A stretch of DNA of 36,036 nt from a virus, in IMG/VR virus record IMGVR_UViG_3300042517_000672, positions 1 to 36,036 of that record, one strand, 5' to 3'. Every line of letters begins with the position of its first letter. Position 1 is the stretch's first letter. A program made the position numbers and the translations under genes. Below the pieces are notes generated by a model that was not told where the DNA came from, did not search any database, and saw only the letters and a program-made list of their open reading frames with translations. Below are positions 1,835-36,036 of this stretch, piece by piece.

Positions 1835-1838
1835 CACA

Positions 1839-2093
1839 ATGGCGACCAAAGTACTACTAAAGATACAAAAGCAACTATTTGATATATGGGAGTTGCGAAG
1901 CATAGAAAAGCACGACGAGTACGACGATACGCTTGAGGACATGCAGTACTTCATAGTTTTAAATAAAACTAGCATTGGTACTAACTATACCCAAGTGAAG
2001 TTTAAATATCCTACAGCCGAATCTAGAGACGCTGAACTAGCAAGAATAGAGTTGCAGTTGGAAGATTACGAGGGTTGCATTATACTTAGATAG
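1839..2093 (+). CDS. Hypothetical protein, 84 aa
   Basis: No family recognised. The protein is small and mixed alpha/beta, with an acidic middle (KHDEYDDTLEDM). It starts five bases after the stop of the possible small terminase gene and is followed by a terminator, so it is the last gene of that unit. Confidence 0.65.
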   Translation: MATKVLLKIQKQLFDIWELRSIEKHDEYDDTLEDMQYFIVLNKTSIGTNYTQVKFKYPTAESRDAELARIELQLEDYEGCIILR

Positions 2094-11343: not shown

Positions 11344-11730
11344 ATGACAAGAATAAATGTGGCAATTGCACCAAGAAAGCTAACAGACAGACATCTGTTA
11401 GCTGAGCATAGGGAAATTAAAAGAATACCGAATGCATTGGCTAAGTATGGTGTAAATTTGAACCTGAAAAATTTACCTAAGGAATTTACATTGGGTACTG
11501 GACATGTAAGGTTTTTCTACGATAAGGGTTTATACACATACAACAGATACATTGAAATTTACAAAGAATGTAAGCTAAGGAATTTTAATGTTGAATTTTA
11601 TGGCGATGCATGGCATGTGTATAAAGATTATCCTAGTTTGTACAAAGATTATGCACCTACCGATAAAGATTTTGAAGCAATAAAAAAAAGGTTGGTAACG
11701 AAAGACAAACGATATATAGGATTGTTATAA
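11344..11730 (+). CDS. denV: Pyrimidine dimer DNA glycosylase / endonuclease V (T4 DenV homologue)
   Basis: Removes ultraviolet-induced pyrimidine dimers by glycosylase plus AP-lyase action. The protein begins MTRIN exactly as T4 DenV does, which matters because Thr2 becomes the attacking amine after Met removal. The HLLAEHREIKR segment at 17-27 matches T4 HLMAEYREL.R and carries the equivalent of catalytic Glu23 (here Glu24, one residue inserted), and LGTGHVRFFYDKGLYTYNR (51-69) matches the T4 LGAGHVTFFYDK block. It is 128 residues against 138 in T4: the C-terminal aromatic tail that contacts the dimer in T4 (WYKYYG) is reduced to KRYIGLL. Residues come from the window; T4 roles are established knowledge. 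Confidence 0.9.
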   Translation: MTRINVAIAPRKLTDRHLLAEHREIKRIPNALAKYGVNLNLKNLPKEFTLGTGHVRFFYDKGLYTYNRYIEIYKECKLRNFNVEFYGDAWHVYKDYPSLYKDYAPTDKDFEAIKKRLVTKDKRYIGLL

Positions 11731-15371: not shown

Positions 15372-16559
15372 ATGAAAATTAAAAATTTTACAAAGGAAGA
15401 AGTTTCCTTAAATGTGTTGCAAGTACTTGACCTATTTAAAAAGGAATTCATGGCATTGGAAAACAAGTTGTCGCTAGTGAACCGCTTGTATTTAAAGTCA
15501 AAGCAAGAGGTGGGTAATTTGTTATTTATTAATGGCGATGTGGTTGAAACATTGCTACAGCCTATTAGCAAAAAAGAATTGGTTACAAACCATTCTGTGT
15601 TGGAAACGAGTCAGGTATTGGGTGACATTGAATTTGACATGCCAATTGTTGATTTTATTGAAAATAGAATTGTAATTGGTGGCATTGAAAATAGTGACGA
15701 TTTGATGTTGTTGTTTAGAATGTGCTTAAACAGCGATTCGTTCTTTGCGTTTTCCTTTAGCATGAATCAGTTTGCTGAATTGCAAAAATTTTATATTAAG
15801 GAAGGGAAGTTGGCTACAGCAACTAACTTTAAGGAAAAGGTAAAAGAAATTGACCCTAAGAAAACTATTTTTGTAGGTTGTGCAGACCCTACATTAATTG
15901 AAAAAATTACCAATTCATTTGGTGACGATATCTTTGTTGCAGTAATGTCACAGGACGTACTGAAAGCCAGTCTGGATTCATTGAATTATGAAAAGGTAAG
16001 CGAGGAGCATAGATTAGCAGTAGAAGCCATGCAAGTCAATGAGGAAAATAAGGCAAAGTCGTTGCAAGTAGCTAAAGAAATTTATGAGTATTATGGCGAT
16101 AGTGGATGCTTTTCAATAGCTAACATAAAAGAATTTTATTTACACAATAAGAGGGGTAAATTTACCAATAAGCAAATTATTGAATTGTTTGACTTTTTGA
16201 TTACAATGAACCGAATTACATGCGTGAACCCACATGAGGAAAAGTTACATAAGAGGTTGTTTGCAGTTACAATTGACGATGTTGATTTGCTGAAATCATT
16301 GAATGTAAAGCTTGATATTTTAAATAAGGAAATTGAAGCATTGCACGATTTGAGGGTAATGACAGAAGAAAACATTGAAGAATTGAGCCACAAAATACAA
16401 GCAGAAGCTGACTTGGAAATACCAAATGAAGGCGATGAAGCATTTGACGATAGCACTATAAGGGAAGTGAACCCTGCAAATGTTGAAGGCAGTGAAGAAT
16501 TTAATGAAGCAAACGAACAAGAAAAACCAAGTGATTACATAAATGACAGAGGTCTATAA
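15372..16559 (+). CDS. Terminase-adjacent hypothetical protein, 395 aa
   Basis: No family recognised. The N-terminal 60 residues are helical; 60-220 is alpha/beta. Residues about 240-290 look like a winged-helix-like helical domain (SIANIKEFYLHNKRGKFTN, then QIIELFDFLITMNRITC). A coiled coil follows at 300-350, then an acidic tail. The gene overlaps the large terminase by 17 bases, so the products are probably made in fixed ratio. That position is where many phages place the small terminase, making a packaging role an alternative to the call at 614. Confidence 0.55.
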   Translation: MKIKNFTKEEVSLNVLQVLDLFKKEFMALENKLSLVNRLYLKSKQEVGNLLFINGDVVETLLQPISKKELVTNHSVLETSQVLGDIEFDMPIVDFIENRIVIGGIENSDDLMLLFRMCLNSDSFFAFSFSMNQFAELQKFYIKEGKLATATNFKEKVKEIDPKKTIFVGCADPTLIEKITNSFGDDIFVAVMSQDVLKASLDSLNYEKVSEEHRLAVEAMQVNEENKAKSLQVAKEIYEYYGDSGCFSIANIKEFYLHNKRGKFTNKQIIELFDFLITMNRITCVNPHEEKLHKRLFAVTIDDVDLLKSLNVKLDILNKEIEALHDLRVMTEENIEELSHKIQAEADLEIPNEGDEAFDDSTIREVNPANVEGSEEFNEANEQEKPSDYINDRGL

Positions 16560-18231
16560 TCATTCAAATGTAGGGGAAATACTTTCAAACCCATTCCGTT
16601 TCAATAGGGCAGAGTTTGATAAGTTAACCACTACAAATGAAGTAGTGAACGAAATTATTGAGGGCATGACGCCAGAAGCAGTTATCCAATTATTGGGTAA
16701 TTGCGACGATAAAGGAATAGATGAATTCTTTAACACTTTAATAGATGAAACCTACAATATAATTTATGGTGATAAGGTAAAAATTATTACCAATAATTTG
16801 TTTGGACATCTTGATAAGGTTACAGAAAGTATTGAAGAAAGCCTTAGATGTGCAGACCTAAGTTACTTTGTAACTAGTGTAATGCCTGACTTTGAAGTCA
16901 ATGCTCACCACATGGATTGGTTTAAAATTGCACAGAAGTACAAACGTACAGCCATATTAGCAAGTAGAGACCATGGAAAGTCGTATTGTTTTAGTAATGC
17001 AGTTCCAGCATGGCAGATGTACAGATACAAGCCAATTACTAGCAAACAGAGAATAAACAATAGAGGTTTTCTGTTTAGTTTTAGTATTACCCAAGCGGTG
17101 GACTTACTAACGATTCTAAAGGACAATATAGAGAGTAACGAGATACTAAGGACACGTTTATACAATAAAGAAAAGTGGGGTAAAACAGACATCACATGTG
17201 CCAATAGAGCAAGGTTGACAGTGAAAGGTTTTGGCTCTTCCGTAAGGGGTGCTCACCCATATTGGATTATAGTTGATGATGGGTTAAAAGATAACGTAAT
17301 TTACAGCCTAGAACAGAGGAACAAAAGTATAAACTATTTCCATTCTGTAATTATGAACATGATTACACCAAACGGACAAGTTATAGTAGTTGGCACTCCG
17401 TTTCATGGTAGTGATTTGTATGGTGACTTAAAAAGCAAAGAGGGTTGGAAAGTGTTTGAATATCCAGGAATATACCCTAATGGTAATTTGTTGTGGGAGA
17501 ACAGATGGTCGTTTAAGGGGTTAATGGAAAAAAGAGCGTCGCAAGGTAATTTAATTTTTAGTAGGGAAATACTATGCAGACCAATTACTAGTGATAGTAG
17601 TATATTTCCAATTGAAATTATGAACAATGCCATTCACAGAATGAGCGATGTTAAGCTAGTTAGGAATAGGGAAAGTTACCACATGAAATTTGATAGGGTT
17701 GTTGTTGGTGTTGACTTTGCGATTAGTAGTAGCGTTGGTGCTGACTTCACTGTGATTACCGTCTGGGGTATAGATAATACCGATAAAATGTGGTTAATGG
17801 AAGCCATAATGGAAAAGGGTATGACTTATGGACAACAAATAGCTACTCTAAAAAACATTAATGTTAACTTCCAGCCTGAGGTTATGGTTCTTGAAAACAA
17901 TGTATTTCAGCAGATATATGTACAGCAAAGTGAACTAGAAGGACTTCCAGTAGTTGGTCATACGACTGGGATTGGTAAAAACGACCTTGAAAAAGGTTGG
18001 GCGGGATTGGCATTGTTATTTGAACGTGGGATGATAAAAATACCAACTGGAGACCAAAGAAGTAAAGACTTTGCCGATGCATTAATTATGCAATTTGGTA
18101 GCGTTGCATTCACCGACAAAGGTGGGTTGCAAAGTACAGATGGACACGATGATATCTGTAGTTCAACATGGTTGGGGAGCATAGCAGTTAAAAAGGTTGT
18201 GACTGGAGCGTTTAATTTTAACTTTATTTAG
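16543..18231 (+). CDS. Large terminase subunit (TerL)
   Basis: The ATPase-nuclease motor that pumps DNA into the prohead and cuts it. ATPase domain: Walker A ASRDHGKS at 140-147, Walker B WIIVDDG at 231-237, and the coupling motif VVGTPFHGSDLY near 282-293. RNase H-like nuclease domain: VVVGVDFA with Asp391, VMVLENNVF with Glu near 461, and HDDICSS with Asp near 546-547. At 562 residues the protein appears complete. It overlaps the preceding gene by 17 bases, and a holin-like gene follows. Confidence 0.95.
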   Translation: MTEVYNHSNVGEILSNPFRFNRAEFDKLTTTNEVVNEIIEGMTPEAVIQLLGNCDDKGIDEFFNTLIDETYNIIYGDKVKIITNNLFGHLDKVTESIEESLRCADLSYFVTSVMPDFEVNAHHMDWFKIAQKYKRTAILASRDHGKSYCFSNAVPAWQMYRYKPITSKQRINNRGFLFSFSITQAVDLLTILKDNIESNEILRTRLYNKEKWGKTDITCANRARLTVKGFGSSVRGAHPYWIIVDDGLKDNVIYSLEQRNKSINYFHSVIMNMITPNGQVIVVGTPFHGSDLYGDLKSKEGWKVFEYPGIYPNGNLLWENRWSFKGLMEKRASQGNLIFSREILCRPITSDSSIFPIEIMNNAIHRMSDVKLVRNRESYHMKFDRVVVGVDFAISSSVGADFTVITVWGIDNTDKMWLMEAIMEKGMTYGQQIATLKNINVNFQPEVMVLENNVFQQIYVQQSELEGLPVVGHTTGIGKNDLEKGWAGLALLFERGMIKIPTGDQRSKDFADALIMQFGSVAFTDKGGLQSTDGHDDICSSTWLGSIAVKKVVTGAFNFNFI

Positions 18232-18506: not shown

Positions 18507-18524
18507 TAGTGTAAATTGCTAACA

Positions 18525-19205
18525 ATGAATTTAAGCGACAAAACAATTTTAAGTGAAATGGAGAATGGTAATATTACTATTTCTCCATTTGACATGAAGT
18601 ACCTGAACCCTAATAGTGTAGACCTTACATTAAATAAAATGTACAAGGTGCTAGACAAGAAGAATGCACACAAACTAAGTACTATTGAAAGGGAAAACCT
18701 TTATGCTAGTGTTAACTTATATACAGAAGAACAGCGTTGGGAAATGAACCCAAACATGTCAAATGCTGAAGTTGATGCCGAATTAGATAGAATAGGTTTC
18801 CCAAGTTACTATGTTGATTGCAAAAAGGAAAACAAGTTTATGGAATTTACAATGCCTGAAGATGGCATGATACTCGTTCCTGGAGAGTTGTACATTTATA
18901 GTTGTAATGAAGTAATAGGTTGCAAGAAGAATATAAGGGCTGGAGTAATGGGTAAAAGTAGCATGGGTAGACTTGGATTGTTTGTACATGTTACAGCAGG
19001 ATTTGTAGATACTGGATTCCAAGGTAGTTTAGTATTGGAAATGGTTGCCACAATACCAATAAAGATTTACCCGAACCAAAAGATTTGCCAAATAGAATTC
19101 GTAAGAGTTGAGGGTGAATTCCTTGAAACATACGACCAAAAGGAAGGTAGTAAGTACATGAACCAAACTGGAGCGCAAGAATCAAAAATGCATAAAAATT
19201 TCTAA
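18525..19205 (+). CDS. dcd: dCTP deaminase / dUTPase family protein
   Basis: Converts dCTP to dUTP, or directly to dUMP in bifunctional members, in the cytoplasm. Family marks: MNLSDKTIL at the start, SPFDMKYLNPNSVDLTL near 20-36, GKSSMGRLGL at 143-152 (the Ser and Arg of the active site), TAGFVDTGFQG at 157-167, and LEM with the expected catalytic Glu172. An insertion between residues about 45 and 105 makes it longer (226) than E. coli Dcd (193). A TTG nine bases upstream is in frame, but the ATG at 18525 matches the family start. Its product could feed dTMP or hydroxymethyl-dUMP synthesis. Confidence 0.88.
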   Translation: MNLSDKTILSEMENGNITISPFDMKYLNPNSVDLTLNKMYKVLDKKNAHKLSTIERENLYASVNLYTEEQRWEMNPNMSNAEVDAELDRIGFPSYYVDCKKENKFMEFTMPEDGMILVPGELYIYSCNEVIGCKKNIRAGVMGKSSMGRLGLFVHVTAGFVDTGFQGSLVLEMVATIPIKIYPNQKICQIEFVRVEGEFLETYDQKEGSKYMNQTGAQESKMHKNF

Positions 19206-19466
19206 ATGAAATACACATTAAAAGCAGTAAACAAAAGTAATTTGTTTACAGAAGATATTGAAGTACTTTGTGGCTCAATAGTTGTTGGTAAAATTTACAA
19301 GGACGTAAACAACGAAAAGCCAAAAAAGTATTCTTGTAAAATGGTTTTAAGTAATGATGCTTATTTAACTAAGATAGCATTTAGCAATGATTACGATTAT
19401 TGCATGGTTTATATAAAGCAAAAATTTGAAGCATTTTTAAAGCAATTAAAAGAAAAAGATGAATAA
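19206..19466 (+). CDS. Hypothetical protein, 86 aa
   Basis: Unknown. It starts at the base after the dCTP deaminase stop and overlaps the kinase by eight bases, so the three are coupled. Beta-rich first half, then a basic C-terminal helix (KQKFEAFLKQLKEKDE). Confidence 0.6.
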   Translation: MKYTLKAVNKSNLFTEDIEVLCGSIVVGKIYKDVNNEKPKKYSCKMVLSNDAYLTKIAFSNDYDYCMVYIKQKFEAFLKQLKEKDE

Positions 19467-20130
19467 GAAACTAATTTGGTTAATTGGTGGCATGGGAAGC
19501 GGTAAAAGTACACAGAGAAGATTATTGTGCAATGCATTTAGAGAAACCGAACCAAAGGAAATTAAAGGCAATTTGACCGATGATGCTGAGTATATGTTTA
19601 CTAGCTTCGGTAAAACTATTAGTTGCATTGGCAAAGTTAAGCAAGAGCACAATGGCGACATAAGTATGTGCGATGGATTAGACAGCGTATTTGGTAGTCT
19701 TAAGAAATTGGGTGGGTTGCATAGCGTTGATGTTGCATTACAGCATAGTGACATAGTCGTATTGGAAGGAAGCCAAACATCACCTAGTTGGGGCGAGTTG
19801 TTAAAGAGTACAATAGAAAGATATGGTGCTGAATTCCATTTGGTACATTTGTATATGACTTACGAAGAAAACTTTAATAGAGTTAGGCAAAGGCAATACG
19901 ATAAACTTAAAAAAGATGGTGGTGCAATGTTTATTAACGACCACAAAGAACATCACCTTACAGATAGGGTAATTGAGAGCCTAATTGGTAAATGTAGACA
20001 ATTTAATAATTGCTACGATAAGTTATTTCCACTAACTTATATTAACAAGGTTAAAATCTTGTGTGGTAATAAAACCGAGGAAGAGGTGTTTGAAGATATA
20101 ATACAAGGTTGCTTCGCAAACGATATTTAA
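19459..20130 (+). CDS. P-loop nucleotide or DNA-base kinase
   Basis: Residues 6-18 (IWLIGGMGSGKST) form a textbook Walker A. VVLEGSQTSP near 97-106 fits the region of the second catalytic Asp/Glu, and ENFNRVRQRQ near 138-147 gives the lid arginines. A 223-residue kinase of this build could act on deoxynucleoside monophosphates, on DNA ends, or on 5-hydroxymethyl-dU in DNA, as the kinases of hypermodified phages do. I cannot choose from the sequence. Supporting the last option: it is coupled to the dCTP deaminase gene and lies 4 kb from a HMUDK-helical protein. The unit ends just before promoter copy 5. Confidence 0.8.
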   Translation: MNKKLIWLIGGMGSGKSTQRRLLCNAFRETEPKEIKGNLTDDAEYMFTSFGKTISCIGKVKQEHNGDISMCDGLDSVFGSLKKLGGLHSVDVALQHSDIVVLEGSQTSPSWGELLKSTIERYGAEFHLVHLYMTYEENFNRVRQRQYDKLKKDGGAMFINDHKEHHLTDRVIESLIGKCRQFNNCYDKLFPLTYINKVKILCGNKTEEEVFEDIIQGCFANDI

Positions 20131-20169
20131 GGATAATCTATTTGTTATTGTTTTGTTAATGGGAAGGTG

Positions 20170-20219
20170 TTTTCTTGGATAATCATGCTTCACATAGTAC
20201 ATTTGTATTGTAATTAAGA
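20170..20219 (+). promoter_or_regulatory. Bacteroidota-type promoter, copy 5 of 5
   Basis: TTG at 20175-20177, 20 bases, TACATTTG at 20198-20205, then TTTGTATTGTAATTAAG. The ATG of the next gene is at 20228. A partial extra copy (GGATAATC followed by TATTTGTTATTG) lies about 40 bases upstream, at 20130-20150, perhaps a decayed duplicate. Confidence 0.85.
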
Positions 20220-20227
20220 ACAAAACA

Positions 20228-20575
20228 ATGGCAAACTACATAAAAAGCAACAGAAACCAACAAAGTAGCTTAACAGCAAATTTAGTAAATGGTGTACAAG
20301 TGACACCTAAGAATAGACTTAAAAAAGTACCCATATCCGTTCAGGACATTATTAACAATAGTTTTGTTGGTAAAATGGTTACATGGGAATATCATGGTCA
20401 AAAATATGGTGGTGAGGTGCTAGAAGTACATGGCATGAACGCGACAGTTGACATGAATGGCATTAGCAAAATATGTCCTGGATTCAAACCTGTGAAAACC
20501 AAAAACATACATGTGTTACCACTTACAAGAATAGCACTAGTTGACTTCAGCACAAGATTCCCACAATTAAATTAA
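20228..20575 (+). CDS. Hypothetical protein with a small barrel, 115 aa
   Basis: Residues 45-95 (VGKMVTWEYHGQKYGGEVLE, then TVDMNGISKICPG) resemble an SH3/KOW-like barrel, and the basic N-terminal 40 residues are probably disordered. First gene of the unit that contains the AAA+ ATPase and Spo11-like genes. No family recognised. Confidence 0.65.
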   Translation: MANYIKSNRNQQSSLTANLVNGVQVTPKNRLKKVPISVQDIINNSFVGKMVTWEYHGQKYGGEVLEVHGMNATVDMNGISKICPGFKPVKTKNIHVLPLTRIALVDFSTRFPQLN

Positions 20576-20593
20576 ACCATAAAATATAAGAAC

Positions 20594-21031
20594 ATGAAAA
20601 TGGAAATTATTAAACAAATGAACCCAAGACAAGCACGAGAAGCTTCAAGTTGTGCTAAAACTATGCTACAGCAAATTAAAGCGGTGGGGTGGAGTACCTT
20701 TAGTAGTTGGGGTACACATTCAATTCAATATGGCATGGCATTGAAAGAAAGAATGCAATGTCCGTTTGTGCAATTTTTAGTGAGCGGTTTTATACACAAG
20801 GGTTTAGTAAGGGTATTTTACCTTCCAGTCCCAGATGTGTACATGGTGCAATTACTAAAGAAGAAAAAAGGTGAAAATGGTAGAATGCATTGGGTTGAAG
20901 TAAAACAAATTGAGGAAGTGTATTGTGATACATTGGGTACAACAATTGATGAAAATGTTGAAACCACAAATGACAAGAGCGAACTTTATGGCAAACAAGT
21001 AACAAAATTTTTAAAGGAAACAAAAATATAA
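20594..21031 (+). CDS. Conserved hypothetical protein, 145 aa
   Basis: Residues 25-120 follow a pattern seen in uncharacterised proteins of Bacteroidota mobile elements: W..FSSWGTHSIQY, a strand ending FLVSGFIHKGLVRVF, DVYMVQLL, then VYCDTLGTTIDENVE. This points to a host in that phylum. The resemblance is from memory; no function known. Confidence 0.7.
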   Translation: MKMEIIKQMNPRQAREASSCAKTMLQQIKAVGWSTFSSWGTHSIQYGMALKERMQCPFVQFLVSGFIHKGLVRVFYLPVPDVYMVQLLKKKKGENGRMHWVEVKQIEEVYCDTLGTTIDENVETTNDKSELYGKQVTKFLKETKI

Positions 21032-21036
21032 AAACC

Positions 21037-21150
21037 ATGCAACAAGAACCAAAAGAGCTGATGGAACAGCCAATTACCAAACAAGACAAAATAAATTTGA
21101 TAGCAATATTGCTGATAACCATAGCTATGCTGATAATAGATAGTTTGTAA
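21037..21150 (+). CDS. Tail-anchored membrane peptide, 37 aa
   Basis: A short frame five bases after the previous stop. A polar N-terminal half (MQQEPKELMEQPITKQDK) is followed by one hydrophobic span (INLIAILLITIAMLIIDSL) ending the protein. Spacing and the clean span suggest it is real. It may anchor to the host inner membrane; role unknown. Confidence 0.5.
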   Translation: MQQEPKELMEQPITKQDKINLIAILLITIAMLIIDSL

Positions 21151-21170
21151 AATTATTAAAAACAATTAAA

Positions 21171-22148
21171 ATGATAACTAAAGGAACAAAAGTAAGTTTT
21201 AAAGACCGACAAGACACCTTAATGAAAGGGGTTGTTAAAAGGGTTACAATTGGTGGAGAAATTATTATTAATGGCGACGATGGTAGTAGGTACACTAGAA
21301 CCAAAGAACAAGTAGTTGTTATTGGTGGTACTACAGACGACATTGATGGTGTTGATGCAATTGAACCAATTGATAGTGTGAAACAAAGTATTGTTAGTAG
21401 AAATGACAAGCTTAGAAAGCAATTTAACATTAACCAAAGATTTGACTACATGGCTCAGTTGGCTCGTATGGTAATTAACAATACAGCAGTAAGTTTGATA
21501 ATAACTGGACAAGGTGGATTAGGTAAAACATTCACTGTCATGCAAGAGATTGCTAGAAAAAAGTTTACCAAACCACAAGATTTCATTGTAATTAAGGGTT
21601 ACAGCACAGCAAGGGGGTTATTTAGAACCCTATATGAAAACAATGGTAAATTAATTGTATTTGATGATTGTGATGAGGTGCTGGAAGATAAGGTAGCTAA
21701 AAACATTTTGAAGAGTGCGTTGGACAGCTACGATACTAGGGAAGTAAGTTGGGTAATAAAGACACCTGATGAAAGTTTACCTGAATCGTTTGAATTCACT
21801 GGAAGGGTTATCTTTATTAGCAACAAAAGCCAAGACCACATTGAACAAGCAATTATAAGTAGAAGCCTGAACATTGACTTAACAATGACTAGCGAGGAAA
21901 TAATAGAGCGTATGGAGTGGATAGTTGCCAATGCTAGGGGGTTTATGCCTACCTTTACAATGCAAACAAAATTAGATGCAATTGACATACTAAAAACAAA
22001 CCTAGCCGACATAAGGGAGTTAAGTTTACGTTCTTTAGAAAAGGTGCTAAAAATACTTTCTGGAGATAAGGATTTACTTGATGTAAACGACCCTGACTAC
22101 AAAGATTTAGATATGCATGAATTGTGTCGTTTTATGTTACTAAGCTAA
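21171..22148 (+). CDS. AAA+ ATPase
   Basis: A 325-residue ATPase. The first 50 residues form a small KOW-like barrel (GTKVSFKDR, KGVVKRVTIGGE). The ATPase core has Walker A GQGGLGKT at 113-120, Walker B LIVFDDCDE at 161-169, a sensor-1-like VIFISN at 213-218, and a candidate arginine finger in IISRS near 228-232. The motif KGYSTARGLFRTLYEN after Walker A recurs in phage ATPases of unknown job. It may load a helicase or remodel DNA complexes. Its neighbour downstream is the Spo11-like gene, with which it may work. Confidence 0.88.
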   Translation: MITKGTKVSFKDRQDTLMKGVVKRVTIGGEIIINGDDGSRYTRTKEQVVVIGGTTDDIDGVDAIEPIDSVKQSIVSRNDKLRKQFNINQRFDYMAQLARMVINNTAVSLIITGQGGLGKTFTVMQEIARKKFTKPQDFIVIKGYSTARGLFRTLYENNGKLIVFDDCDEVLEDKVAKNILKSALDSYDTREVSWVIKTPDESLPESFEFTGRVIFISNKSQDHIEQAIISRSLNIDLTMTSEEIIERMEWIVANARGFMPTFTMQTKLDAIDILKTNLADIRELSLRSLEKVLKILSGDKDLLDVNDPDYKDLDMHELCRFMLLS

Positions 22149-22152
22149 AAAT

Positions 22153-22449
22153 ATGTTCAAAATAAATTCAATCATTAGGACTACTCAATACCCACACGAA
22201 AAAAGTTTGTGGAGGGTATTGGGTTTTCAAACAGCTACCACATTCGCACATGGCAAATATCAAATTCTGTATTGCGAAGCAATGGGTACTAAAAGAAACA
22301 AGGTTAATTTAATGAGTTTCAAATGCAAACCCTACAGCAAGAAAAATGATGAGGTTGATAAGATAAAAAATTTAGCGAAGGTTATGCTCAAAAGGGGCAA
22401 TAATGAAATGGCAAAAAGATTATTAAACAAAATAAAAACCGAACAATGA
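22153..22449 (+). CDS. Hypothetical protein, 98 aa
   Basis: Unknown. Beta-rich first half (SIIRTTQYPHEKSLWRVLGF) and a basic helical C-terminus. It starts five bases after the ATPase stop and overlaps the next gene by four bases (ATGA). Confidence 0.6.
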   Translation: MFKINSIIRTTQYPHEKSLWRVLGFQTATTFAHGKYQILYCEAMGTKRNKVNLMSFKCKPYSKKNDEVDKIKNLAKVMLKRGNNEMAKRLLNKIKTEQ

Positions 22450-22991
22450 AAACAGAACAAGTGGTAAAGGGTAAGATTATAATCAAGGCGGTAAACGAAA
22501 AGCAATCCATTATTGATTTAATGTCTTCTTCAAACAAGCTTAATTTTAGCATAAAAAATAAGGAAGACAATGAAATGGTAAACTATAGAATTTGCAAGGA
22601 CACCAATGAGGGTTCCGAAAAGTTTTGGGTGTACCATGTTGATTTAAGTAAAGAAGTGGTTGTTGTTAATTTCTTAGGTAAGGTTTTGTTTTCTAAGAAG
22701 TACTACTCTTACAGCAATGACAAAGCCAAAGAAACTATATTGTCAAAGTGCAATTTAGTTTTAACGCAATTCTTTAAGGAATTATTTGGTGAGGTTGAAT
22801 TAAGTAAGCGTTTTATACTTTTTGAACGTGAAAACATTGGTAATTTTTACATGCGTAATGTTGCCAAACTTGATGAAATTAAGAAAAAGTTTAAAGATGG
22901 TTTAATCAAATATGAAGAGGTTGGTGAGGTTGTTGAAAACAAAAATTCAAAATTAAAAACGTACAAATTTTATGAAAAAAAGGTTTCTTGA
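22446..22991 (+). CDS. Hypothetical protein, 181 aa
   Basis: No family recognised. Mixed alpha/beta and lysine-rich, with alternating strands (FWVYHVDLSKEVVVVNFLGK at about 57-76) and a helical last third. It overlaps the Spo11-like gene by 20 bases, so the two are probably made together and this could be its partner. Confidence 0.6.
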   Translation: MKTEQVVKGKIIIKAVNEKQSIIDLMSSSNKLNFSIKNKEDNEMVNYRICKDTNEGSEKFWVYHVDLSKEVVVVNFLGKVLFSKKYYSYSNDKAKETILSKCNLVLTQFFKELFGEVELSKRFILFERENIGNFYMRNVAKLDEIKKKFKDGLIKYEEVGEVVENKNSKLKTYKFYEKKVS

Positions 22992-23976
22992 TGATTTGCG
23001 GTTAAGTAAACAAAATCAACTTAGGTTAAGAAATGTGAATGCAATTATTGAGGATTATGCTTCACAAGGGTACAAGCTTACATTAAGGCAATTGTATTAC
23101 CAATTGGTTACTAAGAATATCATTCCAAATAACGACAAAGAGTATGCCAAATTAAGCACTTTGTTGACGAAGGGTAGAATGGCTGGAGTGGTAGATTGGG
23201 ATGCAATTGAAGACCGAATTAGAGTACCTAGACACACATACTACAATACTGGAATAGAAAATGCATTAGATGATGCGGTTAGTTCTTACAGATTAGATAG
23301 GATGCTTGAACAAGACAATTACATTGAGTTGTGGGTTGAAAAGGATGCATTGAGTAATGTGTTAAGCAAGAAAACCAAATACTACCATGTTAGATTAATG
23401 GTTAATCGTGGGTATAGTAGCACCACAGCAATTTACGATTCATTTAAAAGAATTAGCGATGCGTTAAATAGAGACCAAAAGGTTAATATATTGTATCTTG
23501 GAGACCATGACCCTAGTGGCTTAGACATGGTAAGGGATATTAGGGATAGGCTGAAAACTATGCTTATAGCCGATTACCCTGAAGACTTTGTTGAAAACAT
23601 GCTTGAAGTACACCATATTGGTTTGACGCAAGAACAAATTAAACTACATGAACCTCCACCGAATCCAACTAAGGTACAAGACCCTAGAGCAGATTGGTAT
23701 ATAAATAATTTTGGAACTACATGTTGGGAGGTTGATGCATTAAACCCTAAAGTATTACATGAAGTAATTGATGAAAAGGTTGCACAATTGATTGACTTTG
23801 AAAGGTTTAACAATGTGTTGAAAAAGGAAACAATTGACAAGGATGTTCTTAAGGGTGTGCCAATGGTTAGAGAAAACTACCAAAATATACAACTAGCGTT
23901 TAAGAAAGAATTACCTAAAAAACCTAAGATTGGTGACTATAAAAAGTTACTTGAAGATATTGAAAAATTTATTTAG
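22972..23976 (+). CDS. Spo11 / topoisomerase VI subunit A-like TOPRIM protein
   Basis: The order of parts is that of Spo11 and topoisomerase VI-A. A winged-helix (CAP-like) domain at about 20-90 carries TLRQLYYQLV with a Tyr pair at 42-43, where the DNA-cleaving Tyr sits in the family. A TOPRIM domain follows, with Glu123 in LWVEKDAL and the acidic pair Asp178/Asp180 in YLGDHDPSGLDM. At 334 residues it resembles the compact 'mini-A' proteins reported on mobile elements. No B subunit (GHKL ATPase) is in the window. If active, it would make or process DNA breaks or resolve replication intermediates. Motifs are seen directly; activity is inferred. Confidence 0.75.
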   Translation: MKKRFLDDLRLSKQNQLRLRNVNAIIEDYASQGYKLTLRQLYYQLVTKNIIPNNDKEYAKLSTLLTKGRMAGVVDWDAIEDRIRVPRHTYYNTGIENALDDAVSSYRLDRMLEQDNYIELWVEKDALSNVLSKKTKYYHVRLMVNRGYSSTTAIYDSFKRISDALNRDQKVNILYLGDHDPSGLDMVRDIRDRLKTMLIADYPEDFVENMLEVHHIGLTQEQIKLHEPPPNPTKVQDPRADWYINNFGTTCWEVDALNPKVLHEVIDEKVAQLIDFERFNNVLKKETIDKDVLKGVPMVRENYQNIQLAFKKELPKKPKIGDYKKLLEDIEKFI

Positions 23977-24002
23977 ATTGTTAACTTAAAAAACAACAGA
24001 AA

Positions 24003-24221
24003 ATGGCAACAGCTAAAAAGTACGTCATAACAGCGTACAACACCAAAACAAAACAAAAAGGTTGTGAAATGCAGAATGCAGTTATCACAAAAAACAAACT
24101 TGGACGCTACATGGCAAAGGGTGACGATGGTGAGGGTAATACCTTATGTATCTTCATGTCAGAAGCAAATGCTCGTTTAGCAGTTTCGCAAGGAACGGCA
24201 AAAGCAGATGGTTGGAAATAA
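24003..24221 (+). CDS. Small basic protein, 72 aa (DUF5679-like without cysteines)
   Basis: A lysine-rich domain with KKYVITAYNTKTKQKG, then NAVITKNKLGRYMAKGDD, then a helix with SEANARLAVSQ. The middle recalls the 'm.n....k.NGr....G' pattern of DUF5679, but the zinc cysteines of that family are absent, so the link is weak. It is the last gene before a strong terminator. Confidence 0.6.
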   Translation: MATAKKYVITAYNTKTKQKGCEMQNAVITKNKLGRYMAKGDDGEGNTLCIFMSEANARLAVSQGTAKADGWK

Positions 24222-24243
24222 AAGAACTTTAACCATTGAAATT

Positions 24244-24274
24244 GGGGGTGTGAAGATCGTCGCTCCCCCTTTTT
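24244..24274 (+). terminator. Strong rho-independent terminator
   Basis: GGGGG at 24244-24248 pairs with CCCCC at 24265-24269. After one T-T mismatch, three more pairs extend the stem (GTG with CGC, including a wobble), followed by TTTTT. It is the most GC-rich hairpin in the window and ends the replication/nucleotide unit. Confidence 0.88.
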
Positions 24275-24311
24275 GTGAATGTTACATGAAATATTAAACC
24301 ATAAACAAACA

Positions 24312-25334
24312 ATGAAAATAGAAGATAAAAGTTGGTACAAACACCTAAAGCCAGAAACAGAATTAGTTGATGAAGAAAACTTTTACAATTTTTACAGAAC
24401 ATTGCATGAGCGCAATGAAATTTGGATAAGGCGGTTTATAGATAAGCAAGAAAGACCATGGACTTCTGACAAAATACTTAGAGACTACAAATTTACGAAT
24501 TCTTATCGGGAATTAGATCGTGCAAGTCAATGGTTGGTGAATAATGTACTAACAGACCATAGGTTGTCCCTAGAGGACTTAATTTTTAGGATAATGGTGT
24601 ACAGATTTTTTAACCAACCATGTACATTTGATAAAAAGAAAAGTCCTTATGCAATTGTGTTACCACATTATGATAACTTTGACAAACAAGATTTGTGGGA
24701 GCAAGTTGTTACATATAGAGAAAAAGTTGACAATCCGTGGCATACAGCGTATCTAATGAATCCTGGAGCAAGTAAGCCAAATGGTTGGAACAAGCGTGGG
24801 TTATTTCGTGACGACATGTATGTAAACAATGTACTACAGCAAGTTCACGACAAGATACCTGAAATAGTTTTAATACTTAAAAAAGCTAAAAGACCTGAAG
24901 AAATAGTTGCAGTATTGGAAACCATTCTTGCTGTGAGTGGTTTTATGAGCCATGAATTTTATTTGGATTTTTGCTATTGTGCAAAGTATTGGAAACAGCC
25001 AATTATGAAATTCACTCAAAACGATTTTACAAACGTCGGTCCTGGATGCAGTACTGGATTAAGGATAATATTCCCTAGCTTAGAAAAGAAAAGGCAAGTT
25101 GAAGGTATACATTGGTTACTAGAACTCCTTCCAGAAGTTTATGAGCAATTAGGTTTAGAGTTTAGGTACATACATTGGAATAAGGAAGATGGATACCATG
25201 TAAATGAAAAGGTGAACAATTTGACATTACATACTATAGAGTTTTGGTTGTGTGAATACCAAAAGTATTGGAAAATGAATATAGGTGAGGGTAAGCAGAG
25301 GAGTAAATTTAAACCAAAAACAAAAATTGATTGA
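24312..25334 (+). CDS. DNA base hypermodification protein (HMUDK helical domain / aGPT-Pplase type)
   Basis: The domain first seen attached to 5-hydroxymethyl-dU DNA kinases and assigned by comparative genomics to thymine hypermodification. Marks in order: HERNEIWIRR at 32-41, PWTSD at 49-53, YKFTNSYRELDR at 59-70, GPGCSTGL at 233-240, HTIEFWLCEYQKY at 307-319, GEGKQRSKF at 324-332. The all-helical length (340) fits a stand-alone form without the kinase. The start is the ATG at 24312, with an A-rich leader, rather than the upstream in-frame codon. It follows a strong terminator, so it needs its own promoter, which I cannot place. The P-loop kinase at 19459 could be its partner. Confidence 0.8.
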   Translation: MKIEDKSWYKHLKPETELVDEENFYNFYRTLHERNEIWIRRFIDKQERPWTSDKILRDYKFTNSYRELDRASQWLVNNVLTDHRLSLEDLIFRIMVYRFFNQPCTFDKKKSPYAIVLPHYDNFDKQDLWEQVVTYREKVDNPWHTAYLMNPGASKPNGWNKRGLFRDDMYVNNVLQQVHDKIPEIVLILKKAKRPEEIVAVLETILAVSGFMSHEFYLDFCYCAKYWKQPIMKFTQNDFTNVGPGCSTGLRIIFPSLEKKRQVEGIHWLLELLPEVYEQLGLEFRYIHWNKEDGYHVNEKVNNLTLHTIEFWLCEYQKYWKMNIGEGKQRSKFKPKTKID

Positions 25335-26140: not shown

Positions 26141-26320
26141 ATGAAAATAGAAAAAGATAAAAGTAGAGAAAATGTTGATTTAAAAAGCCACTCTATAGAT
26201 TTGGTTTTTGAAAACGAAAATAAACCATTGCCTTATAGTAATGAATTGCTTAAAAAATTAAACATACCTAGTAATGATAAAAAATCAACAAGAAGCAAGG
26301 ATAGCCGAGCAAATAGTTAA
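26141..26320 (+). CDS. Hypothetical protein, 59 aa
   Basis: Short, very charged and probably disordered (MKIEKDKSRENVDLKSHSID). It starts one base after the previous stop and overlaps the zeta-like gene by 47 bases. The in-frame ATG at 26093 lies inside the previous gene and is less likely. As a small charged partner in front of a zeta-like kinase it invites comparison with an antitoxin, but it has no recognisable epsilon-antitoxin features. Confidence 0.45.
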   Translation: MKIEKDKSRENVDLKSHSIDLVFENENKPLPYSNELLKKLNIPSNDKKSTRSKDSRANS

Positions 26321-27170
26321 GGGTTTCTATAAGGATAACGATTTCAATAGAAAGCACAATCTAGTTGGTAAAAGATATGGTAGGGATAAACATGCTGAAG
26401 TTAGCCATGCTGAACGAATAAAGCTAAATGAGGATACTACAAAGGATAGGCATTTTAATAGAAAAGAATGGCGTTATTCAGCTAGTAGGCAAAAACTACA
26501 TGAAGAAATTGTAATGGATAATTTTTACAATTACCCTAGTCAAGAAAAACCAACATGTGTTATCGTTGTTGGTGGCGGTGGAAGCGGTAAGAGCCACATA
26601 TACAATACAAAAGTTAAGCCAAATTTACCCGACGCTGATAGCTATGCATACCTAAACAACGACGACATAAAGGAAATGTTACCTGAAAGTCACGAGTTTA
26701 GAAAAATTGATGCAAAAAGTACAGCAAATAGATTACATGAAGAGAGTGCTGATATTACACGATTGTCGCTTGATTTTCTTACCCACAATAAAAAGAATTT
26801 TGTTTTAGATGCTACATTTAGCAACTACTCTTCAGCAGTACCTAAGATAGAAAAAATGATTAAACAAGGGTACAAAATAAAATTAATTGGTGTAACAGCT
26901 AACAGACAAGTGGTTGAACAAAGTGTGAAAGACAGATACGAAAGAAGTGGTAGATATGTACCAATTAGTATTGCACTAGGGGCGCAAGATGGTGCAAGAC
27001 ACACATTACATAATTTCATTAAGAACCATAGTGACAAATTTGAAGATATACAAGTGTATAACAACGATGGGTTACTAGAAAAGAAAGACCCAATACATGT
27101 GTACGACAATGGCGAGATTAAGCATATAAAATATCACCAAATAAAAAGGTATTTTAGAGGCTACGATTAA
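26274..27170 (+). CDS. Zeta toxin-like P-loop kinase
   Basis: A 298-residue protein whose first 85 residues are a basic extension. The kinase core then shows CVIVVGGGGSGKSH (Walker A at 100-107), LNNDDIKEMLPE (125-136, the substrate-binding Asp region), HEESADITRLSLDFL, NFVLDATF with the second acidic position, and lid arginines near RYERSGRYVP (221-230). Zeta toxins phosphorylate UDP-N-acetylglucosamine and block cell-wall synthesis. Some phage members sit beside head genes, as this one sits just before the portal gene. No epsilon antitoxin is evident. Substrate is uncertain: the fold also covers other small-molecule kinases. Confidence 0.8.
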   Translation: MIKNQQEARIAEQIVKGFYKDNDFNRKHNLVGKRYGRDKHAEVSHAERIKLNEDTTKDRHFNRKEWRYSASRQKLHEEIVMDNFYNYPSQEKPTCVIVVGGGGSGKSHIYNTKVKPNLPDADSYAYLNNDDIKEMLPESHEFRKIDAKSTANRLHEESADITRLSLDFLTHNKKNFVLDATFSNYSSAVPKIEKMIKQGYKIKLIGVTANRQVVEQSVKDRYERSGRYVPISIALGAQDGARHTLHNFIKNHSDKFEDIQVYNNDGLLEKKDPIHVYDNGEIKHIKYHQIKRYFRGYD

Positions 27171-27209: not shown

Positions 27210-28871
27210 ATGGCTAAACGAATCGCAGAGCAATTGGCTTCCATAGAAAGGGCTGAAAGCTTAATACAAATAAAGAAAAACAAATTGCTTGAAAAGGGTA
27301 TTACTAGCAACAATCCCTCAGACATTCTTACAGCTAAAACAATGCTTGAAAACATTGAGGATAAGAATGAAATTAAGCACAAATCCTATATAATTGACCC
27401 AAATGATTTCAATTCATTTCTAGGGTATAAAAACAAAACATATAGTTTAAGCTACAACATGTCCAGAAGGATAAGTTATTCAGTTCCAATTATTAGAGCA
27501 ATTATAGGAACAAGAATAGACCAAGTTGCTTCCTTTTGTGAACCACAAAGTGATAAGTATTCTACTGGATTTGTGATTAGGAAAAAGAAAAAATACTTTG
27601 AATCAGAGAGCGACAGTACTCCGACAAAAGAAGACCAAGCCAAAATACAAAAGTACACAGAATTTATATTGAATTGTGGCGAAGGTAGTAATTTCCAATT
27701 TGATGATTTTGATACCTTTGTTCGTAAGTTTATAAACGATTGCCTTACATACGACCAAGGAACATTTGAGGTCGTTAGAAACCGACGTGGTGCTCCAGCT
27801 AATTTCTTTGCAACAGATAGTAGCACAATGAGATTAACCGACAATATTGAGGACAATAGTTCGTTTTACGATAACAATGGCTTACAAGTTGCTAGGTTTG
27901 GTGACAATAAGAAAATAAAAGGGTATAAAACCGAATATTGCCAATTAAAAGATGGGGTAATTGTAGCTGAGTATTATCCGTGGGAATTGTGTTTTGGCAT
28001 AAGGAATCCAACTACAAATATTTATGCGAATGGTTATGGTGTAAGTGAAATTGAGGTTTTGATGAATACTATAACAAGTATGTTGTGGGGCGATGAATAC
28101 AATAGGCGTTTCTTCAGTCAAGGCTCAGCACCAAAGGGTTTCATAAAAATAAAATCAGGTACGAACATAAACAATGGAAGGGTTTCTGAGTTTAAACAAC
28201 AATGGCAATCAATGATGTCTGGTGTTTATAATAGTTGGAAGACTCCAGTTTTAGAAGGTGATATTGATTGGGTTGATTTACAGCACAACAATAGGGATAT
28301 GGAATTTAGCAATTGGCAAGAATACCTTATCAAAATTAGTTGTGGTATTTACAGAATTGACCCTGCTGAAATTAATTTTCCATTGTCTGGTAGTTCAGAC
28401 CAAAAGCCAATGTTTGAAGGGAACAATGAAGCTAGGTTAAAACATAGTAAGGATAAGGGTTTATATCCACTACTTAAATTTCTGCAAAGGAAATTAAATA
28501 AGTATGTAATGCAACAAATTGACCCCGAATTTGAATTGGTATTTTGTGGCATGGATGGTGTAAACATTGCCGATGAATTGGATAATGATATTAAGATGCT
28601 AGGTAATTTCATGACAATAGATGAAATTAGAATTAGGAGAGGTTTGAAACCACTAGGCGAAGATAAGGGTGGTAGTATAGTATGTAATAGTATCTGGTTA
28701 CAGAACCACAATATGGAAGAGCAAAATAAAAAGGAAGAAGAGCAACAACAGCAACAACAGCAAGGTGGTGAACAAGAACAGGAGCCAGAATACGACGAAA
28801 GCGAGTTACCACAAAATGAGGAAGACCCTTTTGAAAAAGCATTAAACACTTACATGAAAACATTATCTTAG
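27210..28871 (+). CDS. Portal protein
   Basis: The 12-fold ring at one head vertex through which DNA enters and leaves. Marks: SVPIIRAIIGTRIDQVASF at 91-109, a long alpha/beta middle with YYPWELCFGIRNP, the RRFFSQGSAPKGFI block, the WQEYLIKISCGIYRIDPAEI block, and the PLSGSSDQKPMFEGNN block typical of one branch of portals. The C-terminus is a glutamine run (seven Q), then an acidic tail. At 553 residues it is full length. Followed by head genes in the usual order portal, MuF, protease, capsid. Confidence 0.9.
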   Translation: MAKRIAEQLASIERAESLIQIKKNKLLEKGITSNNPSDILTAKTMLENIEDKNEIKHKSYIIDPNDFNSFLGYKNKTYSLSYNMSRRISYSVPIIRAIIGTRIDQVASFCEPQSDKYSTGFVIRKKKKYFESESDSTPTKEDQAKIQKYTEFILNCGEGSNFQFDDFDTFVRKFINDCLTYDQGTFEVVRNRRGAPANFFATDSSTMRLTDNIEDNSSFYDNNGLQVARFGDNKKIKGYKTEYCQLKDGVIVAEYYPWELCFGIRNPTTNIYANGYGVSEIEVLMNTITSMLWGDEYNRRFFSQGSAPKGFIKIKSGTNINNGRVSEFKQQWQSMMSGVYNSWKTPVLEGDIDWVDLQHNNRDMEFSNWQEYLIKISCGIYRIDPAEINFPLSGSSDQKPMFEGNNEARLKHSKDKGLYPLLKFLQRKLNKYVMQQIDPEFELVFCGMDGVNIADELDNDIKMLGNFMTIDEIRIRRGLKPLGEDKGGSIVCNSIWLQNHNMEEQNKKEEEQQQQQQQGGEQEQEPEYDESELPQNEEDPFEKALNTYMKTLS

Positions 28872-29812: not shown

Positions 29813-30713
29813 GCAATTAAACAATATATTTAGTATAATAGATAAATTCCATTCTATATTCATTTCTACCCATTTGGGTACAAACTATTTAAGCGATGAA
29901 CAGAAGTTCAATTTAAAAAATGCTGGAATAGATTTAAGTACTTTTACTAAGGCTGAAATAGTTGATAATGCATTCAAGTTTGGTATGCTAAGTAATATGT
30001 TGCAATCTGTAAAAAATAGTGCCAAGTTAACCTATAAGAAATTCCTTAAATTTTTAGAATTAAATAATTTACCGCTTACAGCTGATGAGCAATTTGCATT
30101 GGATTCGGTTAAACAGCAATGTTATGGCGACATCACTGGATTAGGCAACAAGGTTAAACAAGACATGAACAACATTGTAATTAAACATAGTAATGCTCAA
30201 AAATTTAAAATGGATGCTAGTATTAATAGGTTGGCAAGTGAAGCAGTAGCTAAAAGGCAAACATTGAATAAGTTGTCTAGCGAACTAGGGCATTTAACAA
30301 AGGATTGGAGTAGGGATTTTGATAGGATAAGCGATTACATAATGCATTCGGCATACCAACATGGTAGGGCGCAAAATTTGCTTAAAAATTATGGTGATGA
30401 TGTTGAGGTTTACTTCACAGTCTATCCTAAGGCATGTAAACATTGTATTAGGTTGTATTTGACTGGCGATATAGGTAGTGAACCAATTGTGTTTAAGTTA
30501 ACCGATGTTTTATCAAATGGCAATAACATAGGTGTTAAAAGTATTGACTGGAAACCTAGTGTTAATCCAATTCATCCATGGTGTAGATGTACTTTAACTA
30601 TTAAGCCTAAAGATAGTATTTGGGATGGTGCTTCACAACGATATGTGTTGGTTAGAAATACACATAATGTCAAAAGGAAAAGCAAGGTTGCAGTTAAGGT
30701 GAGTTATGAATAA
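29796..30713 (+). CDS. MuF-like minor head protein (head morphogenesis)
   Basis: Binds the portal inside the prohead and may be ejected with the DNA. The C-terminal MuF marks are clear: YPKACKHCIRLYL (CxxC at 214-217), a strand region with VFKLTDVLSNG, and NPIHPWCRCTL (260-270, the final H.wCRC). The first 150 residues are helical, as usual. At 305 residues it is a short MuF without a C-terminal toxin; the following gene carries the effector domains instead. Confidence 0.85.
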   Translation: MILNNKQLNNIFSIIDKFHSIFISTHLGTNYLSDEQKFNLKNAGIDLSTFTKAEIVDNAFKFGMLSNMLQSVKNSAKLTYKKFLKFLELNNLPLTADEQFALDSVKQQCYGDITGLGNKVKQDMNNIVIKHSNAQKFKMDASINRLASEAVAKRQTLNKLSSELGHLTKDWSRDFDRISDYIMHSAYQHGRAQNLLKNYGDDVEVYFTVYPKACKHCIRLYLTGDIGSEPIVFKLTDVLSNGNNIGVKSIDWKPSVNPIHPWCRCTLTIKPKDSIWDGASQRYVLVRNTHNVKRKSKVAVKVSYE

Positions 30714-30735
30714 CAATGTAAAAAAGTAAAAGAAA

Positions 30736-33582: not shown

Positions 33583-33583
33583 A

Positions 33584-34006
33584 ATGAGATTTGCATACAT
33601 ACCAGAATACCATTGCAGTTTAGATAAAATTAATAGTGGATACATTATTCATGGACAATTTGATTTAGAAGATGATTATGTTAGGAATGAAAATGTTGAT
33701 GAAAGATTAGCCAAAGTAAAGAAGCTAGTATTTGATGACAATTACGAACCTTTGTATGAAAATTGGCATAGCTTACATTTTCCATTGTTACATAATGTAT
33801 CATTTGGTGGTGTGCATAGTAAATGCAGTAAGTTTGATGATTTACCAAATGAAGTTTTGCAAATGGCAGTTAAGGCTGAAAAGCATTTATTTGTAGATGT
33901 TAAATTTGAAAAGTATGTTGAATCTTTAGGTTTAGTACCTTCAGAATTGGATACAATAAATAAATTAAATTTAGTTGAAAACTTTAAATTCTTTAATGGT
34001 ATTTAG
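33584..34006 (+). CDS. Hypothetical protein, 140 aa
   Basis: No family recognised. It starts one base after the stop of the kinase-ART protein and is followed by the protease gene. Mixed alpha/beta, acidic (FDLEDDYVRNENVDERLAKV), with histidine-containing WHSLHFPLLHNVSFGG in the middle. The tight pairing with the fusion gene makes it a candidate partner, chaperone or immunity protein; nothing in the sequence proves this. Confidence 0.6.
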   Translation: MRFAYIPEYHCSLDKINSGYIIHGQFDLEDDYVRNENVDERLAKVKKLVFDDNYEPLYENWHSLHFPLLHNVSFGGVHSKCSKFDDLPNEVLQMAVKAEKHLFVDVKFEKYVESLGLVPSELDTINKLNLVENFKFFNGI

Positions 34007-34035
34007 AGTTCTAATTTTTGATTTATAATATTCAC

Positions 34036-35571: not shown

Positions 35572-35610
35572 TAAACAAATTTTTAAATAAACAATTCAAT
35601 TATAAACAAA

Positions 35611-36036
35611 ATGGTAGATTTACAAAACTACAATTCTGGTGCTGACAATCAAGTTATGTTTGGAGGAAATGCCACAATGCAAGAGGTTGATAACCTTAAC
35701 AAAGCGTTGGAAGCACAAAACCTCACAGGTCGCGAGACTACTAACTTGACCACAACATCAGGTGCTCCGCTTAAAGTGGAAAGTCTCGACAAGACTTTGA
35801 AAGTATTGACATACACAGAAAAAGAGTTAACGCTCTGGTCTAGAATCAAAAAGACTCCTGCCTATAATACGGTTGAAGAGTATAACCAATTAGTATCTTA
35901 TGGTGCTGATAGAGGTGGTTTTAACCGAGAGGGTGAACTTCCAGTTGAAGAGGACAGCACTTATGTTCGTAGAGCTCAGTTGGTTAAATTCTTAGGTGTT
36001 ACCAAATCGGTTACACATCCTATGACTTTAGTAAAT
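35611..36036 (+). CDS. Major capsid protein (partial, 3' end outside window)
   Basis: The first 142 residues of a protein starting MVDLQNYNSG, cut by the window edge. Position after the protease/scaffold gene, an N-terminal region suitable for scaffold contact, and the segment LTLWSRIKKTPAYNTVEEYN, then NREGELPVEEDSTYVRRA, fit an HK97-fold capsid protein of the longer-tailed-phage type. A 39-base AT-rich gap separates it from the protease gene; no promoter box of the early type is present there. Confidence 0.8.
   Translation, partial: MVDLQNYNSGADNQVMFGGNATMQEVDNLNKALEAQNLTGRETTNLTTTSGAPLKVESLDKTLKVLTYTEKELTLWSRIKKTPAYNTVEEYNQLVSYGADRGGFNREGELPVEEDSTYVRRAQLVKFLGVTKSVTHPMTLVN

Follow-up and report, generated by a model that had tools for sequence, protein, structure and literature searches.

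Thymidine hypermodification cassettes and the locus in the window

In the published scheme for thymidine hypermodification, 5-hydroxymethyldeoxyuridine (5-hmdU) is incorporated, a 5-hmdU DNA kinase phosphorylates it and further modification then follows; M6, ViI and PhiW-14 are the three phages in which hypermodified thymidine is established (PMC6449724). The locus described here lies in virus record IMGVR_UViG_3300042517_000672, a genome fragment of 36,036 bases that was analysed at full length and is called the window below. It contains a gene for a diverged P-loop kinase and, 4.1 kb further on, a gene for a helical protein of the PF18723 (HMUDK_hel) family (Table 1). We consider it likely that a large SPO1-like Bacteroidota phage hypermodifies its thymidine and that these two genes are the split 5-hmdU DNA kinase module of that pathway. 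By its homologies, this phage is probably a new carrier of chemically altered DNA and not the bearer of a new kind of system.

The gp54/gp55/gp58 cassette of Pseudomonas phage M6 (also of YuA and Ab18), composed of a PF18748 kinase, an HMUDK_hel protein and a hydroxymethylase, resembles the locus in having separate kinase and PF18723 genes. The M6-type genome encodes a hydroxymethylase-type enzyme, and M6 gp51 is an amino acid:DNA transferase (ADDT) related to a solved glycinyltransferase. M6 has its kinase and helical genes side by side, whereas in the window other genes lie between them; the window kinase is ~21% identical and falls below PF18748, and the fragment carries neither a hydroxymethylase nor a transferase. 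The second point of comparison is the 637-residue 5-hmdU DNA kinase of Bacillus phage SP10, whose helical half has the same predicted fold as the window protein (TM 0.76 over the query). To judge by its name and length, the SP10 protein is a fusion of the two parts, which are distinct genes in the window.

Salmonella phage ViI and other Ackermannviridae encode a PF18723 protein with up to 32% identity to that of the window, and their 5-hmdU kinase adjoins a thymidylate-synthase (TS) relative. They belong to another phage lineage with another host, however, and their kinase is a clear PF18748 member (Det7). The helical protein is also predicted to share its general fold with gp46 (PUGT) of Pseudomonas phage PaMx11 (8z2m, 8z2n), although the two are only 8% identical, the window protein belongs to PF18723 and not PF18724, and a transferase would lie outside the fragment. 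One relative of the window phage, G019, resembles the PaMx11 pathway more fully in that it encodes both an ADDT and a homologue of a flavin-dependent lyase (8z2o, 8z79), entries that we take to be from PaMx11. Pelagibacter phages of the HTVC023P type have TS and aG/PT-PPlase1 partner genes (PMC9599517). Such a combination of TS relative and PF18723-type protein, to which a 5′-deoxynucleotidase is sometimes added, recalls the kinase-less relative G008; the HTVC023P-type phages are SAR11 podoviruses, whereas the window derives from a large Bacteroidota phage with a kinase.

Helical protein and kinase: sequence and predicted structure

The helical protein matches PF18723, a family that takes its name from the helical domain found in 5-hmdU DNA kinases, with 159.3 bits (cut-off 25; E 1.7e-46) over profile positions 3–279 of 281. 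The profile search thus bears out an assignment that the original prediction had made by eye, and none of 14 control genomes gave a match. The family motifs PWT, F.N..RE.D, GPG and E..CE..KY are all present in an alignment with M6 gp55, Det7 gp36, the LysYB1 and Ab18 proteins and 32 metagenomic homologues. The protein also matches phrog_2396 (5.4e-46) and the C-terminal half of phrog_800 (1e-11), and its relatives are encoded at 50 viral-contig loci. PF18723 is present in LysYB1, Det7, M6, PhiW-14, TSW001, Vi01 (ViI) and Ab18; SPO1 and T4 lack it. The DNA of SPO1 contains 5-hmdU without further modification.

An AlphaFold model of the helical protein, made from 33 sequences, has a pLDDT of 89.6 and a pTM of 0.88. 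Its best match in VIA-align is the PaMx11 5-phosphomethyl-dU glycinyltransferase 8z2n (Z 10.4 over 217 residues; rmsd, root-mean-square deviation, 3.9). Next come the queuine salvage enzyme DUF2419 (Z 9.9) and helix-hairpin-helix (HhH) DNA glycosylases (Z 8.4–9.3). Foldseek gave no significant match in the PDB (best E 0.6; range 0.6–0.8), so the likeness to the glycinyltransferase and HhH glycosylases is a resemblance of fold that rests on the VIA-align Z-scores, and is not proof of activity. A search for solved structures related by sequence to the helical protein found none. Among the predicted viral structures in BFVD the top match is the SP10 kinase, and lower-ranked matches, with weak E-values, include proteins named amino acid:DNA transferase.

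The small P-loop kinase, located where the original prediction had placed it, has 223 residues and the Walker A motif GGMGSGKST. A reference hidden Markov model (HMM) built from only six proteins (M6 gp54, Vi01_061 and the LysYB1, TSW001, Ab18 and PhiW-14 kinases) gives it 27.6 bits with an E-value of 2e-7, against 7.1 bits for the runner-up among background open reading frames (ORFs), likewise a P-loop protein, a gap of 20 bits. The kinase part of phrog_800 also matches (6e-5); generic AAA models give nothing better than E 0.0016. All of the positions that are invariant in a 13-sequence alignment (G15, K16, G58, G73, D75 and R145) are kept, and the protein also carries the G..GxD and EG motifs typical of the 5-hmdU kinase family, at an overall identity to the known members of only 20–24%. 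The AlphaFold model (pLDDT 86.6) has a fold like that of nucleoside monophosphate kinases. Direct searches of GenBank phages and viral contigs found no relatives of the window kinase, and its homologues were obtained from PF18723 gene neighbourhoods. A direct search for solved structures related to the kinase came back empty, and a profile search returned only P-loop or other partial matches. Taken together, these sequence comparisons support placing the protein among the 5-hmdU DNA kinases of phages and not among generic nucleotide kinases.

The two window proteins are linked to one another by gene fusion. The phrog_800 group, which is labelled ‘terminase small subunit’, corresponds to the 5-hmdU kinase family, and its 511 positions comprise a kinase part and a helical part, each matched separately by one of the window proteins. 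This two-part profile and the SP10 protein provide a Rosetta-stone link between the kinase and helical genes. The same label is widely attached to phage 5-hmdU DNA kinases in GenBank and PHROGs, including M6 gp54 and the Vi01/Ackermannviridae and YuA records.

Gene clusters of related phages and a proposed pathway

The linkage of the two genes is conserved. In M6, Ab18 and LysYB1 they adjoin or lie close together with a hydroxymethylase-type gene nearby, and kinase homologues occur within a few kilobases or less of the helical gene in the relatives G017, G019, G020 and G028. The kinase of G017 lies ~4 kb before the helical gene, the same spacing as in the window. The closest relative, G028 (portal 58% and helical protein 48% identical), encodes on one 47-kb contig a dCTP deaminase, the kinase, an ADDT (E 7e-20; ~1.8 kb after the kinase), an FkbM-type methyltransferase and the helical protein. 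The 110-kb contig G019 encodes the complete chain: hydroxymethylase, three kinases, a flavin-lyase relative, an ADDT and the helical protein. At 59.9–66.2 kb of this contig (loci L065 and L148) the three paralogous kinases are clustered with the flavin-lyase relative, the ADDT and the PF18723 gene.

A long TS relative is present in all nine contigs of at least 86 kb that carry a close helical homologue (G002, G003, G006, G008, G009, G014, G015, G018 and G019). The four scored against PHROGs all match phrog_5131, the group of SPO1 gp29 (annotated as a dUMP hydroxymethylase), better than phrog_160, the group of Escherichia coli ThyA (233–249 versus 120–135 bits). Asp and Asn stand in for E. coli ThyA Leu143 and His147 in all nine, and Asn177 is retained, a pattern shared with SPO1 gp29, M6 gp58 and the Vi01 enzyme; in the dCMP hydroxymethylase of T4, Asn177 gives way to Asp. 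A canonical ThyA in these relatives was rejected on the basis of these scores and active-site residues. The TS tree was not relied on because it is weakly resolved (82/96 for the nine-row group, with long outgroup branches). In G002 the hydroxymethylase gene is located upstream of TerL and past the stretch that matches the left end of the window, and its absence from the fragment is therefore expected. By analogy with these relatives, the window phage would encode such an enzyme elsewhere in its genome. The parts that the original prediction had listed as missing thus occur within the same group, as dUMP-hydroxymethylase-type enzymes, ADDTs and a flavin-lyase relative.

Two more distant phages encode a PF18723-type protein together with a dCMP hydroxymethylase: G022 (IMGVR_UViG_3300001528_000460, 50.3–50.8 kb) and G023 (IMGVR_UViG_3300028797_000159, 34.36–35.9 kb). 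Their enzymes are 47–49% identical to T4 gp42, with Asp at the Asn177 position, and in G023 a kinase of the 5-hmdU kinase type, with a reference-HMM score of 33 bits, lies 0.27 kb upstream. The module may therefore act on 5-hydroxymethyldeoxycytidine (5-hmdC) in these phages. Loci L100, L101, L125 and L166–L174 were noted with them.

We propose the following pathway for the window phage. The dCTP deaminase would convert dCTP to dUTP and so feed the dUTP/dUMP pool, from which a phage dUMP hydroxymethylase encoded outside the fragment would make 5-hmdUMP to replace thymidine at replication. The helical protein would bind DNA and might hand 5-hmdU to the kinase by base flipping; a role in presenting the base is suggested by its fold, similar to HhH glycosylases and the glycinyltransferase, and by the natural fusion. 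The P-loop kinase would then phosphorylate the 5-CH2OH group to give 5-phosphomethyl-dU, and an ADDT, also encoded outside the fragment, would displace the phosphate before further enzymes trim the added group. This reading extends thymidine hypermodification, known mainly from Pseudomonas, enterobacterial, Bacillus and Delftia phages, to a large uncultured Bacteroidota phage group, and it supplies kinase sequences that present annotation overlooks or labels ‘terminase small subunit’. Hypermodified DNA is resistant to restriction enzymes and may disturb library preparation and sequencing.

Several results weigh against this assignment. Neither the Pfam scan nor a search that allowed E-values up to 10 matched the kinase to PF18748 (HMUDK_HMUD1), so that ‘works like’ a 5-hmdU kinase is better supported than formal membership of the family. 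Searches of the 36-kb window found no TS relative or hydroxymethylase and no PF18724 transferase, in agreement with the original prediction, and a hidden ADDT there was rejected when a custom ADDT HMM found no match either. The dCTP deaminase, proposed as the first enzyme of the scheme, stands as identified: it scores 126.8 bits against Pfam DCD (1e-36; cut-off 27) and 129.5 bits against TIGR02274 (cut-off 92.8), matches PDB dCTP deaminases at 1e-26 and has homologues in G002 (46%) and G028 (32%). The support that it lends to the pathway is only generic, since such an enzyme is not specific to it. A 13-row profile detects no kinase in seven of the nine large relatives that bear the helical protein and the hydroxymethylase, indicating that the link between helical protein and kinase is not a strict one. 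PF18723 proteins also occur in MazG/TIR/Nmad2 operons of Bacteroidota chromosomes, and the domain therefore has another use as well. Overall, the scheme of the original prediction is supported at the level of the pathway.

The relatives that combine PF18723 with a dUMP-hydroxymethylase-type enzyme and no detected kinase are G002, G003, G006, G008, G009, G014 and G018. Among the 74 proteins scanned in G008 are a dUTPase, a deoxycytidylate deaminase and a YfbR-like deoxynucleotidase, and no member of the kinase family. These phages and the pelagiphage TS/aG/PT-PPlase1 pairs suggest that the helical protein has a closer link with the hydroxymethylase than with the kinase, and the name of the family may mislead. 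Its role becomes testable with this comparative set, in which it accompanies a hydroxymethylase also in phages that lack a detected kinase. A more speculative extension, which we regard as possible but doubtful, is that the diverged split module, with three kinases in one relative, builds an undescribed thymidine modification, perhaps through context-specific kinases, and has moved to cytosine in the sister branch with dCMP hydroxymethylase.

Alternative readings, host and neighbouring genes

The pathway could end early, leaving 5-hmdU or 5-phosphomethyl-dU in the phage DNA without an added amino acid. Phosphorylated 5-hmdU by itself already blocks many restriction enzymes (PMC7653180), and such an end point would agree with the negative ADDT HMM in the window and with the lack of a PF18724 transferase in the window and in most large relatives. 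We think it unlikely, since G028 has an ADDT shortly after its kinase and most of the genome of the window phage lies outside the fragment. It is somewhat less probable that the kinase is an ordinary nucleotide or nucleic-acid kinase, serving nucleotide supply or repair, and has nothing to do with the helical protein encoded 4 kb away. Its predicted fold is about as close to adenylate as to gluconate and polynucleotide kinases, and both the PF18748 result and the low identity to known 5-hmdU kinases fit this view; but the independent kinase HMM clearly separates it from other P-loop proteins, so that a generic kinase is rejected in part, the family signature is shared, and its homologues adjoin or neighbour PF18723 genes in several relatives.

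It appears very unlikely that the two proteins serve a nucleotide-based conflict system instead of DNA hypermodification. The aGPT-PPlase domain is listed among predicted defence domains (PMC13092281), and homologues with 24–28% identity occur in Bacteroidota chromosomes with MazG_C, TIR-like and Nmad2 proteins, one of them with a TS-like enzyme. The window protein is far nearer to phage homologues (up to 48% identity), however, its gene stands in a terminase-to-portal block, and the relatives carry hydroxymethylase-type enzymes and not TIR operons. An action of the window module on 5-hmdC, for which the dCMP hydroxymethylases of G022 and G023 and the adjoining kinase of G023 might speak, is hardly credible when nine of nine large contigs of the close group have the dUMP-type enzyme with Asn177 and the window helical protein groups with them by identity (37–48% versus ~30%). 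The chromosomal homologues at L108, L110 and L112 (Flavobacterium and Bacteroidales) adjoin MazG-MazG_C, Nmad2 and TIR-like proteins, the last of these loci also with the TS-like enzyme, and the setting looks like a nucleotide-based defence operon.

The host is likely a member of the Bacteroidota, as originally proposed. Shine-Dalgarno sequences are avoided in the window (1 of 47 genes, versus 15.5% of random positions) and gene leaders are A-rich. Among cultured phages, the large terminase (TerL) is best matched by the DAC/SJC group of Bacteroides phages (35% identity) and the portal by Chryseobacterium phage MA9V-3 (42%), followed for the portal by Bacteroides phages and SPO1-like phages. 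PF18723 is absent from both cultured relatives checked, MA9V-3 and Bacteroides phage DAC19; the thymidylate synthase of MA9V-3 is ThyA-like by score (299 bits to PF00303). One relative is found in a metagenome-assembled genome assigned to Sulfuricurvum and is possibly misbinned phage DNA.

Table 1. Features of the window and of the relative G019
Feature	Position	Strand	Basis or remark
Window: large terminase (TerL)	16543-18231		
Window: dCTP deaminase	18516..19205, probable ATG 18525	+	Pfam DCD, TIGR02274, PDB matches
Window: 86-aa ORF, function unassigned, couples deaminase and kinase	19206..19466	+	position in ORF list alone
Window: diverged P-loop kinase, 5-hmdU DNA kinase type	19459..20130	+	reference HMM, phrog_800, invariant residues
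Window: phrog_6247 ‘DNA topoisomerase’ protein	22972..23976	+	phrog_6247 4.7e-83
Window: 72-aa conserved ORF near module in relatives	24003..24221	+	homologues in relatives
Window: HMUDK_hel protein (PF18723; aGPT-PPlase clade 1)	24312..25334, alternative ATG 24279	+	PF18723 1.7e-46
Window: portal	27210-28871		
G019: hydroxymethylase	644-1840		
G019: three kinases	~60.0, 63.9, 64.6 kb		
G019: FAD protein	61.5-62.5 kb		PDB relatives only ‘flavin-dependent lyase’ entries 8z2o, 8z79
G019: ADDT	62.9-63.9 kb		
G019: helical gene	65.2-66.2 kb		last kinase ends directly before

The deaminase, kinase and helical genes sit between the TerL and portal genes. In the ORF list the deaminase, 86-residue and kinase ORFs adjoin directly or overlap, the 86-residue ORF starting right behind the deaminase stop and its 3′ end overlapping the kinase start. 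The phrog_6247 product reads like a topoisomerase VI A/Toprim protein and has homologues at L065:3640-4722 (54% identity) and, weakly, L090:3729-4799. Genes of this type directly precede a kinase gene in G019 and overlap the kinase gene in G028, which marks them as conserved neighbours of the module. The 72-residue ORF has homologues with 40–45% identity in L090/L077, L059, L065 and L067.

A second contig, L161 (IMGVR_UViG_3300034103_001049), is 100% identical to the window over 30349-36036 (5,688 bases) and adds 4.8 kb on the right, mostly head genes; a search for an extension on the left found none. Just upstream of the portal, 26274-27170 encodes a Zeta-toxin-like P-loop kinase (Zeta_toxin 4.9e-32) whose top PHROG match is a minor head protein. 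A 948-residue protein among the head genes (30736-33582) has HipA_C as its sole match, weak and below the cut-off (0.012). At 11344-11730 the window probably encodes a pyrimidine-dimer DNA glycosylase of the DenV type, 51% identical to a G002 ORF and the likely source of a Pyr_excise match (2.7e-12) in the pooled scan.

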